34,214 nucleotides of DNA from NCBI RefSeq assembly GCF_025210595.1, contig NZ_JAOARH010000039.1, forward strand, positions 1 through 34,214. Reading direction: 5' to 3'. Positions 25,499-31,043 of this stretch are shown in pieces. Every line of letters starts with the position of its first letter. The first letter of the stretch is position 1. The translations under genes were made by a program, and so were the position numbers. Under the pieces are notes generated by a model. It searched no databases. It saw nothing but the letters and a program-made list of their open reading frames with translations, and was not told the DNA's origin. Source of the DNA: Winogradskyella sp. Its GTDB lineage: Bacteria > Bacteroidota > Bacteroidia > Flavobacteriales > Flavobacteriaceae.

Positions 25499-25564
25499 TT
25501 AGTAAAGATTTCACAAAAACGGCAAAAGCTACTACATCCTCAATGGCAAACCCAACAATTCATA

Positions 25565-25598
25565 CGTCATTGCGAGCCACTCACAAACGAAGTAATCT
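25565..25598. repeat. CGTCATTGCGAG palindrome, CCACTCAC subtype
   Basis: Matches the second copy at 13356-13389 with a single change in the closing half (AAGTAATC for AAGCAATC), which weakens the ATTGC/GCAAT stem. Confidence 0.8.
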
Positions 25599-25604
25599 AA
25601 CCAT

Positions 25605-25846
25605 CTAAAGACCTAATACACCAATACAACTTGAAATTCCGACAAGGTCGGAAGCTGCTATCGGCAGTATATATAATTAAAATCCGTAAAAAATAGTGGA
25701 AGCCTTGGACGCTATTTAGGATTTTAATTATGGTTATAAGAGCGCCAAAAGCGCACTTAAAAATACCTTCGATAGTAAAGGGCTTTTTGGTTCGTTTTTG
25801 GCCCATCAAAAATGAACGTACAAACAAGAGCTATCCAACCACCTAA
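25605..25846 (+). repeat. Modular multi-hairpin repeat, copy B (full)
   Basis: Nearly identical to copy A over its whole length. Two changes fall in stems and turn Watson-Crick pairs into plus-strand G-U pairs: TGCTATCG in the closing stem and AAATAGTG in arm 1. Arm 2 reads AAGAGCGC/GCGCACTT, with one mismatch. Confidence 0.85.
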
Positions 25847-25848
25847 CA

Positions 25849-25997
25849 ATCTAAAGACCTAATACATCAATACAACTTGAAATTCCGACAAGGTCGGAAG
25901 CTACTATCGGCAGTATATATAATTAAGATCCGTAAAAAATAGCGGAAGCCTTAGACGCTATTTAGGATTTTATTTAGGATTTTAAGAGCGCCAAAAG
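25849..25997 (+). repeat. Modular multi-hairpin repeat, copy C (3' truncated)
   Basis: Directly follows copy B in tandem. It keeps the TTCCGAC hairpin and arm 1 (AATTAAGATCC, again a plus-strand G-U pair). It has a short internal duplication of TTTAGGATTTT and stops in the loop of arm 2 after GAGCGCCAAAAG. Confidence 0.82.
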
Positions 25998-26015
25998 AGA
26001 TCTAATAAATCCATC

Positions 26016-26085
26016 CGTCATTGCGAGTGAGGTACGAACGCGGCAATCTAACAATCTACTGATCTAATAATCTAAGAACCTAACC
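26016..26085. repeat. CGTCATTGCGAG palindrome running into an ATCTAA array
   Basis: A TGAGGTACGAACGCGGCAAT-subtype copy (26016-26049) whose terminal CAATCT continues as ATCTAAC, ATCTACTG, ATCTAATA, ATCTAAGA units. Confidence 0.75.
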
Positions 26086-26463: not shown

Positions 26464-26471
26464 TACATTTG
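26464..26471 (+). promoter_or_regulatory. -7 promoter element for the defence-type operon
   Basis: TACATTTG matches TAnnTTTG exactly. Transcription would begin near 26477, leaving about 30-50 nt before the possible non-AUG starts of the restriction-modification gene. Confidence 0.55.
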
Positions 26472-26506: not shown

Positions 26507-28972
26507 CTGGAATTAAATTATAACATAGAAGCAAAAAGAATACTATCACTTAATAGACTTGATAAATCGAAAAAATCGGAGTTAGGACAGTTTTTTACTC
26601 CAACATCTATATGTGAATATATGAGTTCTATGTTTTCTAACTTGGATGGAAATATTAGTCTATTAGATCCTGGTTGTGGTTTAGGCTCTTTATTTGTTTC
26701 AGTTATTGAAGAATCACTTTTAAGAGGAAATAATGGAATACTTTCTATAAAAGGTTATGATATTGATGATAGTTTAGACGAAGAAATTATTAATACAATA
26801 AAATTGTGTCATAATCGATTAAATGGAGCTTGCGATATATCAATCCAGCATAGTGATTTTCTACTTACTGATATAAAAGAGAGGTTCACACATGTAATAA
26901 TGAATCCTCCTTACAAAAAGATTTCAAGTAAGAGTGAGCATAGAAAATACTTAAAAGAAAATATCGGATTAGAAACTGGAAATTTATATTCTGCCTTTCT
27001 TGCAAAAGCAATAAAACTCACTAAAAAAGGAGGTGAAATTGTTGCAATTATTCCACGTTCTTTTTCAAATGGCCTTTACTTTAAACCTTTTAGAGAGTTT
27101 TTATTGAAAGAAACAAGTATTGAAAAAATACATTTGTTTGATGAAAGAAATAGTGCATTTTCTGAAGACAGCGTTTTACAAGAAAATATTATTATACATT
27201 TAGTAAAGGGGAAAAAACAAGGAAAAGTATTAATAACTTCTAGTCCTTCTGGTGATTTTCACAGAGACAAGCAAACGAATACTATGACAGCGGATGGATT
27301 AACACTACGAACTGTTGAATTCGAAAAAGTTGTTTACCCAAATGATAATGACAAATTTATACATGTTGCATCTTCAGAATTTCAACAAAAAATAATTGAT
27401 AGGCTTTCTGGATTCACAAGTAGTCTAAAAGATATTGATATACAAGTAAGTACAGGACCTGTTGTAGATTTTAGAATGAAAGCAGATTTATCAATGAATC
27501 CAAAAACAGGATATAATCCATTGATTTATCCAATGCATTTAAAAAATGGAATTAATTGGCCAATAAAAGATTCTAAAAAACCGAATGCTATCAAATTAAG
27601 CGAAAAATCAAAGTCATCTTTATGGGAAAATAAAGGTTTCTTTTTATTAACCAAAAGATTTAGTTCAAAAGAAGAAAAAAGACGAATTGTTGCTACAATT
27701 TATGATTCAAGTCCAGTAGGAGATTTAGTTGGTTTTGAGAATAAACTAAATGTGTTTCATTCAAACAAAAAAGGTTTAGATTATAATTTGATTAAAGGAC
27801 TTTATGTATATTTAAATAGTTCTTTATTAGACCAATACTATAGAATATTTAGTGGAAACACACAAGTTAATGCAACAGATTTGCGAGCATTGCATTACCC
27901 AAATAGGTTAATTCTAGAACAAATTGGTAAAGAAATTAAAAATAATATCCTTAGTCAATCTCAAATTGATTACAAATTAAATAAAGTTATTGAAAATATG
28001 TCTGATGAAAAATCTAAAAAAGATCCATTAAATAGTCAAACAAAGATTAATGAAGCTCTTGAAATTCTAAAAGCCTTAGGAATGCCTAGAGCCCAACAAA
28101 ATGAACGTTCTGCTTTAACTTTATTAGCTTTGTTAGATTTAAAACCAAATCTTTCTTGGAGTGATATAGATTCTCCAATGATTGGAGTAACTCCAATTAT
28201 GGATTGGGTTAGAGATGAATATGGTAAAGAATATGCTCCTAATTCTAGAGAAACTTTCAGAAGACAAACTTTACATCAATTTTTAGAGGCTGGTTTAGTA
28301 GCATATAATCCAGATAAACCAGATAGAGCACCCAATAGCCCAAAAGCATGTTATCAGGCCATACCAGAGTTATTAAGATTGTTGAATAATTTTGGAAGTC
28401 ATGAATGGGAAAAATTATTGAAACAATTTCTTTCTAAAAGGAAGACTTTGAGAGATAAATATGCAATGAAAAGAAACCAAAGTAAGGTGCCATTAACTAT
28501 TGATGGAAATTTATTTGAATTGACACCTGGTGATCATAGTGTTTTAATTAAAAAAATAATTGAAGACTTCGGGCCACAATTTGTTCCAGGTTCAGAGCTT
28601 ATTTATGTTGGAGATACTGAAAATAAAACTGGATATTATCAGAAAGATAAATTAAAAAAAATTGGTGTTACTGTAAATGCTAAAGGAAAATTACCAGATG
28701 TAATTTTACATTTCACAAAAAAAAACTGGCTAATATTGATAGAATCCGTTACTAGCCATGGACCAGTTGATGGAAAGAGATATAATGAATTAAAAGAATT
28801 ATTTAAAGATTCAACTGCGGAATTAGTATATGTAACGGCATTTTTAAATAGAAAAGCTATGGCTAAATATATTGCAGACATATCATGGGAAAGTGAAGTT
28901 TGGGTAGCAGATTCTCCAACTCATATGATACATTTTAATGGACACAAATTTTTAGGACCTTATAAGAAATAA
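26507..28972 (+). CDS. Single-chain BsuBI/PstI-type restriction-modification enzyme
   Basis: Numbered from the in-frame ATG at 26621, the protein has the SAM-binding motif LLDPGCGLGSL (14-24), the N6-adenine catalytic motif NPPY (95-98), and a target-recognition region at about 240-450. From about 470 follows a BsuBI/PstI endonuclease domain, with the catalytic pattern PD (692-693), E708 and GPVDGKR (714-720). The conserved LGQFFTP motif lies upstream of that ATG at 26582-26602. The frame is open back to 26504 without an ATG, so I set the start at CTG 26507, giving about 821 residues; ATA 26525 is another option. BsuBI and PstI cut CTGCAG; the target here may differ. First gene of a three-gene operon. 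Confidence 0.88.
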   Translation: MELNYNIEAKRILSLNRLDKSKKSELGQFFTPTSICEYMSSMFSNLDGNISLLDPGCGLGSLFVSVIEESLLRGNNGILSIKGYDIDDSLDEEIINTIKLCHNRLNGACDISIQHSDFLLTDIKERFTHVIMNPPYKKISSKSEHRKYLKENIGLETGNLYSAFLAKAIKLTKKGGEIVAIIPRSFSNGLYFKPFREFLLKETSIEKIHLFDERNSAFSEDSVLQENIIIHLVKGKKQGKVLITSSPSGDFHRDKQTNTMTADGLTLRTVEFEKVVYPNDNDKFIHVASSEFQQKIIDRLSGFTSSLKDIDIQVSTGPVVDFRMKADLSMNPKTGYNPLIYPMHLKNGINWPIKDSKKPNAIKLSEKSKSSLWENKGFFLLTKRFSSKEEKRRIVATIYDSSPVGDLVGFENKLNVFHSNKKGLDYNLIKGLYVYLNSSLLDQYYRIFSGNTQVNATDLRALHYPNRLILEQIGKEIKNNILSQSQIDYKLNKVIENMSDEKSKKDPLNSQTKINEALEILKALGMPRAQQNERSALTLLALLDLKPNLSWSDIDSPMIGVTPIMDWVRDEYGKEYAPNSRETFRRQTLHQFLEAGLVAYNPDKPDRAPNSPKACYQAIPELLRLLNNFGSHEWEKLLKQFLSKRKTLRDKYAMKRNQSKVPLTIDGNLFELTPGDHSVLIKKIIEDFGPQFVPGSELIYVGDTENKTGYYQKDKLKKIGVTVNAKGKLPDVILHFTKKNWLILIESVTSHGPVDGKRYNELKELFKDSTAELVYVTAFLNRKAMAKYIADISWESEVWVADSPTHMIHFNGHKFLGPYKK

Positions 28973-28976
28973 ATAA

Positions 28977-30050
28977 ATGAAAAGACAAGCATCAGTACAA
29001 GATATAACATGGTTTTTGGATTTAAATAATGTTTCAAAATTAAACTTAAATCCACCTTATCAGAGAAGAAGCGTTTGGACTCCATCAGATAGAAAATTTT
29101 TTCTAGATACAATTTTTAGAAATTATCCATGTCCACCTATTTTTATACACAAAACAATAGATGATTCCGGTTCTACTACATATCATGTAGTTGATGGTAA
29201 ACAAAGGTTGGAAACGATTATAAAGTTTGCAAATAATAAAATTGCAATGAGTAAAGAGTTTGGTGATGAAAGGTTAGATGGCAAACGATTTAAAAATTTA
29301 GATCCAGATTTAAAAAAGATATTTTGGAATTATAATTTAGCTGTTGATTTTATTGAAATACCTGAAGGATTAGATATAAATGAAGTATTTGATAGAGTAA
29401 ATAGAAATTCTAGAAATTTAGAAAGGCAAGAATTGCGACATGCTAGACATAATGGTTGGTTTATAAATGAGGCTGAAAAAGAAGCAGATGACGATAAGTT
29501 TTGGCAAAATATCAAAGTAACTACTTTGGCCAAAGCCAAAAGGATGAAAAATGTGCAATTAGTATCTGAATTACTTTTGATACTGATTGATGGTAAAATT
29601 CATGGATTTAGTCAAAACTTTTTAGATGATAGCTATGCATTATATGAAGAAATAGAATTGGAAGGTGGAGAAACAATAGTTGATGAAGAAGAATACCTTG
29701 ATAAAAAAAATAAAGTGAAATCTATTTTGCAAGAAATGGAAAATCATAATGAATGTGTCAGTACATATGCAAAAGTCGCTTATAATTTATATGTTCTTTT
29801 CGCTTTTATTGGTCTAGAAGATACTGGAAAAACACCAGTTGAATTGGCTCAATCATATAAAAATTTCATGGAGGAAATAGAATTATTCAAAAAATCTGAT
29901 GACGCAGAAGAATTATTTAATAATCCTGATCAAAAATCGGAAAATTGGGAAAATGCTTTTAAATACTATAAAAATACTAGAGGTGCAAATACAGATTTAT
30001 ATCAACGTAATGAGAGGTATGAAGCATTGAAAGATGTTTTAAGTAAATAG
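28977..30050 (+). CDS. Stand-alone DUF262 (GmrS-like) protein
   Basis: The 357-residue protein has the DUF262 / GmrSD N-terminal ParB-like fold: NPPYQRRSVW (25-34), YHVVDGKQRLETI with the DGQQR-type nucleotide motif (73-77), and FDRVNRNSRNLERQELRHAR (138-157). In GmrSD and SspE this domain binds or hydrolyses NTP and is followed by a DUF1524 HNH nuclease. Here the rest is helical and acidic and shows no HNH motif, so any nuclease function would have to come from another protein. It starts 4 bp after the restriction-modification stop and ends 6 bp before the RelA/SpoT-like gene. Confidence 0.9.
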   Translation: MKRQASVQDITWFLDLNNVSKLNLNPPYQRRSVWTPSDRKFFLDTIFRNYPCPPIFIHKTIDDSGSTTYHVVDGKQRLETIIKFANNKIAMSKEFGDERLDGKRFKNLDPDLKKIFWNYNLAVDFIEIPEGLDINEVFDRVNRNSRNLERQELRHARHNGWFINEAEKEADDDKFWQNIKVTTLAKAKRMKNVQLVSELLLILIDGKIHGFSQNFLDDSYALYEEIELEGGETIVDEEEYLDKKNKVKSILQEMENHNECVSTYAKVAYNLYVLFAFIGLEDTGKTPVELAQSYKNFMEEIELFKKSDDAEELFNNPDQKSENWENAFKYYKNTRGANTDLYQRNERYEALKDVLSK

Positions 30051-30056
30051 AATGGA

Positions 30057-31043
30057 ATGAAAGTAATTAATTCAATAAAATCTATTTATACTAATCAGGA
30101 AGTTATTAATAATACTCTGAAGTTAAAAGTAGACAGTATTTTTGAATCATCTAAACTAAAATCTTGGCATTATATAAGTAGAACTAAACCATTAGAAAGC
30201 TTTGCCCAAAAAATTGAAACTGGTAGAGTAGAGGATCCATCTAAAATGGAAGATTTTTTTGCATGTACTTTTGTAGTTGAAAATATGGGTCAAATTCCTT
30301 TAGCGGTTACTAAAGTTGAAGAGCATGCTAATATTCTATATCAAAGACCAAAAACTCCAGAGTTTACTCATAAAGATACTAGTTCATTTGTTTTTGATGA
30401 TTTAAGGCTATATTGTCAGCTTAAAGAAACAAATTCTAGAGAGAAAGGACCAGTAAATGATATAATTTTTGAAGTTCAAATTAAAACTTTTTTGCAACAT
30501 GCTTGGGCTATTTCTACACGAGAATTGATATATAAATCAGATGTGATTGATTGGCAAAAGCAGCGTATTGCTTATCAAATAAAAGCTATGCTTGAGAATG
30601 CTGAGATATCAATTGGTAATGCTACGCAAATAGAAGAAGTTAGGGGCTTACCAACAAATAATAGAAAAATAAAGAAACAAAATTTAATTAAGAGTTTTAT
30701 TCATGCCAATTGGCCTCCTGAACGATTGCCGGAAAATGAAATGAGATTAGTAGATAACATTGAACAGTTAACAAGTCAATTCCACATAGAAATTAAAGAT
30801 TTACAGATATTATTGAATGAAGAAGCAAAAGAAGGAAAGGGATATAATTCATTAAATTTATCGCCTTATTTAGCAATAATTCAGACATTAATAAATAAAG
30901 AGTCTATAGCATTTGTTAATTTCTTAAGAATTAAAAGAAAAAGAAACTATCCAAAGAAAATATTAATTCCAAGTAAAGAGCTTGATTTCACTTATATTGA
31001 TTACAAATTGTTTGAAAAAAGTGATAATATAATTTTAATATGA
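30057..31043 (+). CDS. Divergent RelA/SpoT-domain nucleotidyltransferase
   Basis: The 328-residue protein matches the RelA/SpoT synthetase pattern. SRTKPLESFAQKI (41-53) is the ATP-loop region, MEDFFACTFVV (64-74) replaces the usual D..G.R strand, and FEVQIKTFLQHAW (138-150) is the EiQIRT..mHAWAe motif with the Mg-binding Glu. IYKSD follows. The GYRSLH guanine-binding loop is not conserved; that position reads SSFVFDDLRLYCQL. It has no HD hydrolase, TGS or ACT domain, only a C-terminal helical part of about 150 residues. It could be a (p)ppGpp/ppApp synthetase or a tRNA pyrophosphokinase like known toxSAS toxins. Third gene of the operon. Confidence 0.8.
   Translation: MKVINSIKSIYTNQEVINNTLKLKVDSIFESSKLKSWHYISRTKPLESFAQKIETGRVEDPSKMEDFFACTFVVENMGQIPLAVTKVEEHANILYQRPKTPEFTHKDTSSFVFDDLRLYCQLKETNSREKGPVNDIIFEVQIKTFLQHAWAISTRELIYKSDVIDWQKQRIAYQIKAMLENAEISIGNATQIEEVRGLPTNNRKIKKQNLIKSFIHANWPPERLPENEMRLVDNIEQLTSQFHIEIKDLQILLNEEAKEGKGYNSLNLSPYLAIIQTLINKESIAFVNFLRIKRKRNYPKKILIPSKELDFTYIDYKLFEKSDNIILI

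Follow-up and report, generated by a model that had tools for sequence, protein, structure and literature searches.

A DUF262 and RelA/SpoT-fold gene pair beside exchangeable N6-adenine methylases, a candidate abortive defence module in Winogradskyella sp. and other phyla

What could be the function of a compact operon of Winogradskyella sp. in which a fused restriction-modification (R-M) enzyme is followed by a lone DUF262 protein and a divergent RelA/SpoT-fold protein (REL), and which of these parts belong together? The operon is located in the window, i.e., the whole stretch of DNA that was analysed, positions 1-34,214 of the forward strand of contig NZ_JAOARH010000039.1 (assembly GCF_025210595.1). 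Its three open reading frames (ORFs) are all on the plus strand with intergenic gaps of 4 and 6 bp, and Pfam domains agree with the three assignments made in the first-pass annotation of this DNA. Across 31 loci the DUF262-REL pair is nearly invariant, an N6-adenine methylase is its usual neighbour and the nuclease comes and goes. We put at roughly 0.5 the probability that the trio is a DNA-modification-coupled abortive defence module, in which the methylase would set the self mark, DUF262 would be the switch and REL the effector. The features of the operon are as follows.

26464..26471, plus strand: candidate -7-type box TACATTTG (from the sequence; motif at chance level in the window)
26507..28972, plus strand: fused N6-adenine methylase and BsuBI/PstI-type restriction endonuclease, about 821 residues, CTG or other rare start (Pfam, PADLOC)
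26549..27376, plus strand: N6_Mtase domain (PF02384, 1.3e-17)
28040..28450, plus strand: BsuBI_PstI_RE_N helix-turn-helix domain, residues 512-648 (Pfam)
28496..28945, plus strand: BsuBI/PstI nuclease domain (PF06616, 4e-61)
28977..30050, plus strand: lone DUF262 (GmrSD_N / ParB-Srx type) protein, 357 residues (Pfam, PADLOC, alignment)
29037..29450, plus strand: DUF262 (GmrSD_N) domain, residues 21-158 (Pfam)
30057..31043, plus strand: REL, divergent RelA/SpoT-fold protein with a C-terminal extension, 328 residues (Pfam, profile)
30177..30542, plus strand: RelA_SpoT synthetase domain, residues 41-162 (Pfam)

The locus set consists of 31 distinct REL loci including the window; a duplicate (L027) was dropped and four near-identical plasmid records were merged into a single locus (L003). 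At least 26 loci came from a genome scan, a lower bound because only exact hits to either of two peptide patterns counted, three from a viral collection, and five Rhizobium records from plasmids. Of the 26 titles from the genome scan, 19 name metagenome-assembled genomes, for which wrong binning is possible. Judged from record titles and the tree listing, the loci span about nine phyla: Bacteroidota (the phylum of the window), Pseudomonadota, Thermodesulfobacteriota, Nitrospirota, Acidobacteriota, Chloroflexota, Myxococcota and the Melainabacteria/Sericytochromatia group, with an archaeal case on a single contig of 4,371 bases binned as Thermoplasmatota (L018). Confinement to this strain or its close relatives, which the first-pass annotation had named as the outcome that would speak against it, was thus not what was found.

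In 30 of the 31 loci REL is preceded, on its own strand, by a DUF262 gene of one subfamily. The locus scan gave 29 of these pairs; the other (L031) has a partial DUF262, only the gene end being on the contig. The gap between the two matches is below 70 bp in most loci. Pairwise identities of REL and DUF262 correlate over 23 loci (Mantel r 0.86, with none of 5000 permutations as high). L033, the sole REL that lacks a DUF262, is truncated ahead of residue 56 or so, and R42, K44 and K52 are therefore absent. The pair therefore behaves as one unit and not as chance neighbours, as had been proposed for the window.

Some loci carry additional genes. In two, an extra gene of about 220-230 residues lies between nuclease and DUF262 (L011, 1421-2116; L012, 6269-6925); the one in L012 is similar to PADLOC PDC-M31B/HEC-01B and has no Pfam match. 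In L003 (7379-9660) an IS5-family transposase gene is located within REL, and the methylase, nuclease and DUF262 genes are annotated whole; by tblastn four near-identical Rhizobium plasmid records match, of which L003 and L004 were fetched. In L037 (3829-6548) the DUF262 gene is split by inserted DNA that encodes a recombinase-like ORF and a further ORF containing an SPPY motif.

Of the 31 loci, 26 have an N6-methylase at most 7 kb from the pair, with queries drawn from the methylases of these same loci and the window. In 50 relatives of the window, about 155 Mb of sequence, N6_Mtase matched 106 times, a background of about 0.01 expected per locus of 14-16 kb; the rate is somewhat low, as class-c proteins (see below) match the N6_Mtase Pfam model just weakly. 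The five misses are three loci at contig ends (L011, L030, L031), the remnant L033 and the disrupted L037. In 11 of these 26 loci less than 150 bp separate the end of the methylase match from the pair, and in L010 the genes overlap; in L012 the match is weak and 5.5 kb away. Eighteen methylases are upstream on the same strand, six downstream and convergent, and two downstream on the same strand.

At least four methylase classes adjoin the pair, on either side and in both orientations. Class a is BsuBI/PstI-like, class d M.Eco57I-like and class e one divergent case. Class b is PADLOC PDLC03338-like, as tested on L029, the others being assigned by 39-55% mutual identity. Class c is a coherent family of about 440 residues, 34-60% identical; its DPACGAG/NPPF-type motifs vary in L020 and L034. 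On a REL tree of 25 rows, in which nine of 22 inner branches are strongly supported, 10 changes are required to explain the classes, against a mean of 13.5 after shuffling, where 3 of 200 came out as low. They are thus partly clustered on the tree but repeatedly exchanged, and the number of classes, their varied placement and these changes together indicate repeated recruitment. Within class c, methylase and REL co-vary (r 0.78, 13 of 2000 permutations, seven loci).

A BsuBI/PstI-type nuclease is present in 15 of the 31 loci, so that in about half of them, including the window, the module is an added nuclease layer richer. Thirteen loci have an N6-methylase without such a nuclease (L002, L010, L013, L014, L016, L018, L020, L028, L029, L034, L035, L036, L114). 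Other nuclease-like genes are nearby in three of these, an HNH gene in L029, a NucS/DUF5655 gene in L035 and a large restriction-like ORF in L114. Their removal leaves 10 loci, among which the contig of L018 is short and that of L014 ends shortly past REL. An unrecognised nuclease is possible in some neighbourhoods, the neighbouring ORFs being Pfam-scanned in part. In the reverse control, DUF262 or REL was beside none of 29 other BsuBI/PstI-nuclease loci of the window's phylum (30 loci fetched from 34 matches in 395 genomes; flanks of at most 1.5 kb, some cut by contig ends). Among plasmid records, 138 matched the nuclease and five REL. Of the trio proposed at first, the DUF262-REL pair is kept and the nuclease is not a defining part. 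The idea that REL acts when restriction fails survives as a possible second layer in the 15 loci with the nuclease; it is not the whole story, because the 13 others have a methylase and no BsuBI/PstI-type nuclease.

Class-c methylases were also sought regardless of REL, in plasmids (four records) and viral contigs (eight loci); none was found in phage records. REL accompanied none of these 12. In eight, a HATPase protein adjoins the methylase, together with an MBL-fold nuclease (L074, L077, L121) or an HNH-like nuclease (L075, L076, L117, L118, L120). A receiver-like protein is present in L074, L077 and L121; for L117 and L075 the assignment is weak or was made by eye. In L076 the HATPase/kinase-like gene is in several pieces. 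The arrangement recurs on plasmids and viral contigs, and this combination of a class-c methylase, a HATPase/histidine-kinase-like protein and an MBL/HNH-like nuclease looks like a separate methylase-linked defence system. No description of the ATPase-nuclease module was seen among the papers listed. Two of the 12 have convergent NsnA-like DUF262 and HEPN (MAE_28990/RiboL-PSP) genes (L119, 7800-11033; L122, 2480-5526), and two stop at the methylase, where the contigs end (L115, L116). Since one methylase family takes varied modules, with REL in 0 of 12, DUF262-REL appears to fill the slot of other effector modules.

For protein 2, GmrSD_N (= DUF262) was the sole Pfam family above the cut-off (8e-22). 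A DUF1524-type HNH nuclease was ruled out, as Pfam gave no DUF1524 match. YQRxSVW-type residues (Y28, Q29, R30, S32, V33, W34) and VDGKQR are invariant in all 26 aligned DUF262 rows, and the latter fits the NTP-pocket motif of GmrS, (I/V)DGQQR (PMC10952713). Against PADLOC the window protein scored 98 bits with NsnA and just 61 bits with PD-T4-2_A. In SspE, recognition of the mark leads to GTP hydrolysis, which licenses the nuclease (PMC13251355); GmrSD and BrxU recognise modified DNA, and the DUF262 of Dazbog likely recognises methylated DNA (PMC10952713). With these precedents and the conserved motif, the earlier suggestion that the DUF262 protein is the sensor gains support by analogy, and a role as switch is plausible.

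REL gave RelA_SpoT as its Pfam match above the cut-off (3.5e-7), and the best solved-structure matches of its profile were the CapRel chains 7ztb and 9erv (E 0.002). Against PADLOC the only candidate was PDC-S33, a weak match of 28 bits. None of the 28 rows departs from D66, E139, Q141, K143, T144, Y159 or K160, and R42, K44 and K52 are invariant in all 27 rows covering these positions. Apart from Y159 and K160, we take these residues to be the catalytic core, those equivalent to CapRel R79, R116 and Y155 being assigned from the literature. In CapRel SJ46, R79 and R116 coordinate ATP and Y155 is required for protection (PMC9712102); in the HMMER alignment to 7ztb, R79 corresponds to R42 and is kept. 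These residues and the fold point to a RelA/SpoT-type pyrophosphokinase, in line with the shutdown effector predicted earlier.

The REL family is rare. In 395 genomes of the window's phylum its profile matched six, the window's own genome, which holds one copy, at 415.6 bits and the other five at 45.7-68.6 bits; a score in the range of the family was thus reached only in the window's own. By these profile scores REL was ruled out as an orthologue of the other solo synthetases of the phylum. A canonical GYxSxH-type loop is present in three proteins (L005-L007) that were read from a search of 149 relatives with a single protein. Sister pairs on the REL tree join different phyla: L015 from Nitrospirota groups with L017 from Acidobacteriota, L014 from Chloroflexota with L018, which is binned as archaeal, and L028 from Bacteroidota with L013/L016 from Pseudomonadota. 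This suggests that DUF262-REL loci have spread by horizontal transfer. Phage records searched with REL gave no match, and E. coli no DNA match to REL of L010. A plasmid search with L010 REL returned the same five Rhizobium records and two Streptomyces records (26% identity over 65%). A Sulfurovum plasmid (L009) has a DUF262 protein 33% identical, without REL. Scanning the viral collection with the DUF262 alignment yielded 30 loci, three of them REL loci already counted (L010 as L085, L037, and L114 as L087). One (L086) has methylase and DUF262 with the contig end directly there, and the remaining 26 are weak matches of at most 36% identity over part of the protein.

The mechanism that we consider would run in three steps. 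First, the N6-adenine methylase, whose domains are present, would mark host DNA. Second, the DUF262 protein would sense the state of the DNA or of the methylase, and binding or hydrolysis of a nucleoside triphosphate (NTP) would switch its partner; by analogy, it may read the mark of the methylase (N6-methyladenine). Third, on meeting unmarked or non-self DNA, DUF262 would release or activate REL, which would be toxic, arresting growth through modification of a nucleotide or RNA. With a BsuBI/PstI nuclease present, as in the window, cutting would come first and REL would be the second layer; where it is absent, DUF262-REL would substitute for the restriction half. A further proposal, which we hold at slightly less than even odds, is a restriction-like immunity in which a RelA/SpoT-type growth-arrest enzyme, gated by a DUF262 protein that would read the methylase mark, would replace a nuclease as the restriction half, within a modular family where one methylase type is combined with exchangeable DUF262-REL, DUF262-HEPN or ATPase-nuclease effectors; the substrate of REL is possibly new for the fold.

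Several observations weigh against this account of a methylase-coupled effector. The linkage count of 26 of 31 rests on queries from the loci themselves, the background of 0.01 on rounded genome sizes and on relatives of the window only, and defence genes cluster in any case. Methylase and REL co-vary only weakly in class b (six loci, r 0.52, 94 of 2000) and not at all in class a (five loci, r -0.19, 1518 of 2000), and co-variation may also stem from joint transfer and need not mean contact. Five loci have a broken DUF262 or REL (L003, L026, L033, L037, L114), beside a whole methylase in L003, L026 and L114, so the pair is dispensable; in L037, REL is intact despite the split DUF262 and although no methylase was detected. 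Two CapRel substrate residues are lost in REL, R116 being replaced by Thr71 and the G-loop Y155 by Phe113 (28 of 28 rows; same alignment), so REL is maybe no active synthetase. The sequences suggest an active enzyme with a changed substrate site, and REL may alternatively be a regulatory pseudoenzyme. The window copy has Arg155 (30519-30521) in place of a His found in 27 of 27 other rows with a residue there, and may thus be changed or inactive.

Among the other explanations, the best placed, although clearly less probable than a modification-coupled module, is a PrrC-like guard, in which DUF262-REL would sense a disabled R-M complex (e.g., one hit by phage anti-restriction proteins) instead of DNA marks and arrest the cell. 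The nuclease in 15 of 31 loci is consistent with such a guard; the 13 loci with a methylase and no such nuclease (three have another nuclease- or restriction-like gene nearby) are not, and with several methylase classes adjoining the pair a new interface would be needed for each. A little less probable again is an addiction module, in which a toxin-antitoxin-like DUF262-REL would kill cells that lose the methylase and so stabilise the locus, plasmid or prophage. Whole methylases beside broken REL or DUF262 (L003, L026, L114) argue against it, and plasmid records are a minority, most loci being on genome contigs; its occurrence on plasmids typed as conjugative and on contigs filed as viral, and the truncation of the sole REL without DUF262 (L033), would suit it. 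We regard as improbable a type IV-like back-up, in which DUF262 would detect phage-modified DNA that escapes the R-M enzyme and would trigger REL. It draws on the recognition of modified DNA by GmrSD and BrxU, and likely of methylated DNA by the Dazbog DUF262 (PMC10952713), but leaves unexplained both the usual methylase neighbour, often without a nuclease, and the co-variation of class-c methylase and REL. Chance clustering in defence islands, with DUF262-REL as an independent two-gene system, is very improbable. In its favour, the pair is nearly invariant while the adjoining methylase varies in class and orientation; against it, a methylase within 7 kb in 26 of 31 loci compares with about 0.01 expected per locus, and it is less than 150 bp from the pair in 11 of 26 and overlapping in L010.

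If the modification-coupled module is real, it would join DNA self/non-self marking to growth arrest of the alarmone-synthetase type, strategies which we found described only separately. Three-gene loci without a detected nuclease (e.g., L010, L013, L014, L016, L028) form a compact testable set, and a RelA/SpoT family with replaced substrate-site residues would possibly make a new nucleotide or RNA product.

In the window, protein 1 gave BsuBI_PstI_RE (5e-60), BsuBI_PstI_RE_N (8e-54), Eco57I (9e-18) and N6_Mtase (1e-16) above the Pfam cut-off, and matched PADLOC MTase_II PDLC03359 over residues 8-819 (1184 bits). The methylase frame is open from 26504/26507 to 28972. No ATG, GTG or TTG start in frame retains the GQFFTP segment; upstream of this segment table 11 offers just CTG at 26507 and ATA at 26525 and 26540 as possible starts. 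The frame 5' of the ATG at 26621 is conserved with L022 (26504-26621). Either the window methylase uses a rare start codon, or it is truncated.

The single promoter claimed at first for the operon comes down to one box at 26464 that resembles the Bacteroidota TAnnTTTG motif; it is a candidate only, as 53 such motifs were found in the window vs 59 expected by chance. The intergenic stretch 5' of the operon contains a direct repeat of 175 nucleotides, 90% identical (25597-25771 and 25843-26017), and, overlapping it, a second pair of 62 nucleotides, 76% identical (25557-25618 and 26008-26069). An Rfam search matched nothing. Among 50 relatives, with the window's own genome counted, the flanking patatin gene was found in seven (E 1e-100) and the response regulator in two (E 1e-60). 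In this empty-site comparison the flanking genes were not kept together, so no clean insertion boundary can be drawn.

How does the unit compare with known systems? Like BsuBI/PstI type II R-M systems, window gene 1 has both the PF06616 nuclease and an N6-adenine methylase; unlike them, the enzyme is fused, and the pair is beside 0 of 29 other copies in the phylum. In SspABCD-SspE a DUF262 protein likewise reads a host-made DNA mark and licenses an effector, but that effector is an HNH nuclease domain in the same chain and the mark is phosphorothioate (PMC13251355). No DUF1524 of the SspE-type DUF262-DUF1524 chain was found in window protein 2, no search aimed at ssp genes being made, and Pfam gave no DUF1524 HNH nuclease of the GmrSD/BrxU type in the chain. 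CapRel and toxSAS share with REL the RelA/SpoT synthetase fold and core catalytic residues; REL differs in the replaced G-loop Tyr and one adenine-contact Arg, the DUF262 partner and the methylase link.

The claim that no such system had been described has to be qualified. Among the papers listed, largely ones outside subscription, none was seen to combine DUF262 with a RelA/SpoT-type protein; for the general plan, two described systems are comparable. PD-T4-2, a tested anti-phage system whose deletion restored T4 plaquing (PMC9519451), contains DUF262 and HEPN (PMC10952713). It also places a DUF262 without DUF1524 beside a separate effector; the effector is HEPN, and a methylase is unmentioned in the passages of these two papers. 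For HEPN MAE_28990 genes, a ParB nuclease gene and a DNA methylase gene are listed as operon partners (PMC3710099), an arrangement that similarly brings a methylase, a ParB-type protein and a toxin-like effector together. From L119 and L122 we infer that this ParB is of the DUF262 type; the DUF262 of these two loci is of a subfamily other than that of the window (identities of 25 and 28%, covering part of the protein). The DGQQR-type NTP-pocket motif of PD-T4-2 and MAE_28990-type proteins has its counterpart in the VDGKQR of the window family (26 of 26). The effector there is a HEPN RNase; the third gene of the window gave no HEPN match in Pfam and RelA_SpoT instead. The operons of methylase, ParB and HEPN and PD-T4-2 (DUF262 and HEPN) are thus prior art, and a credible case can be made that the RelA/SpoT version is the new part.

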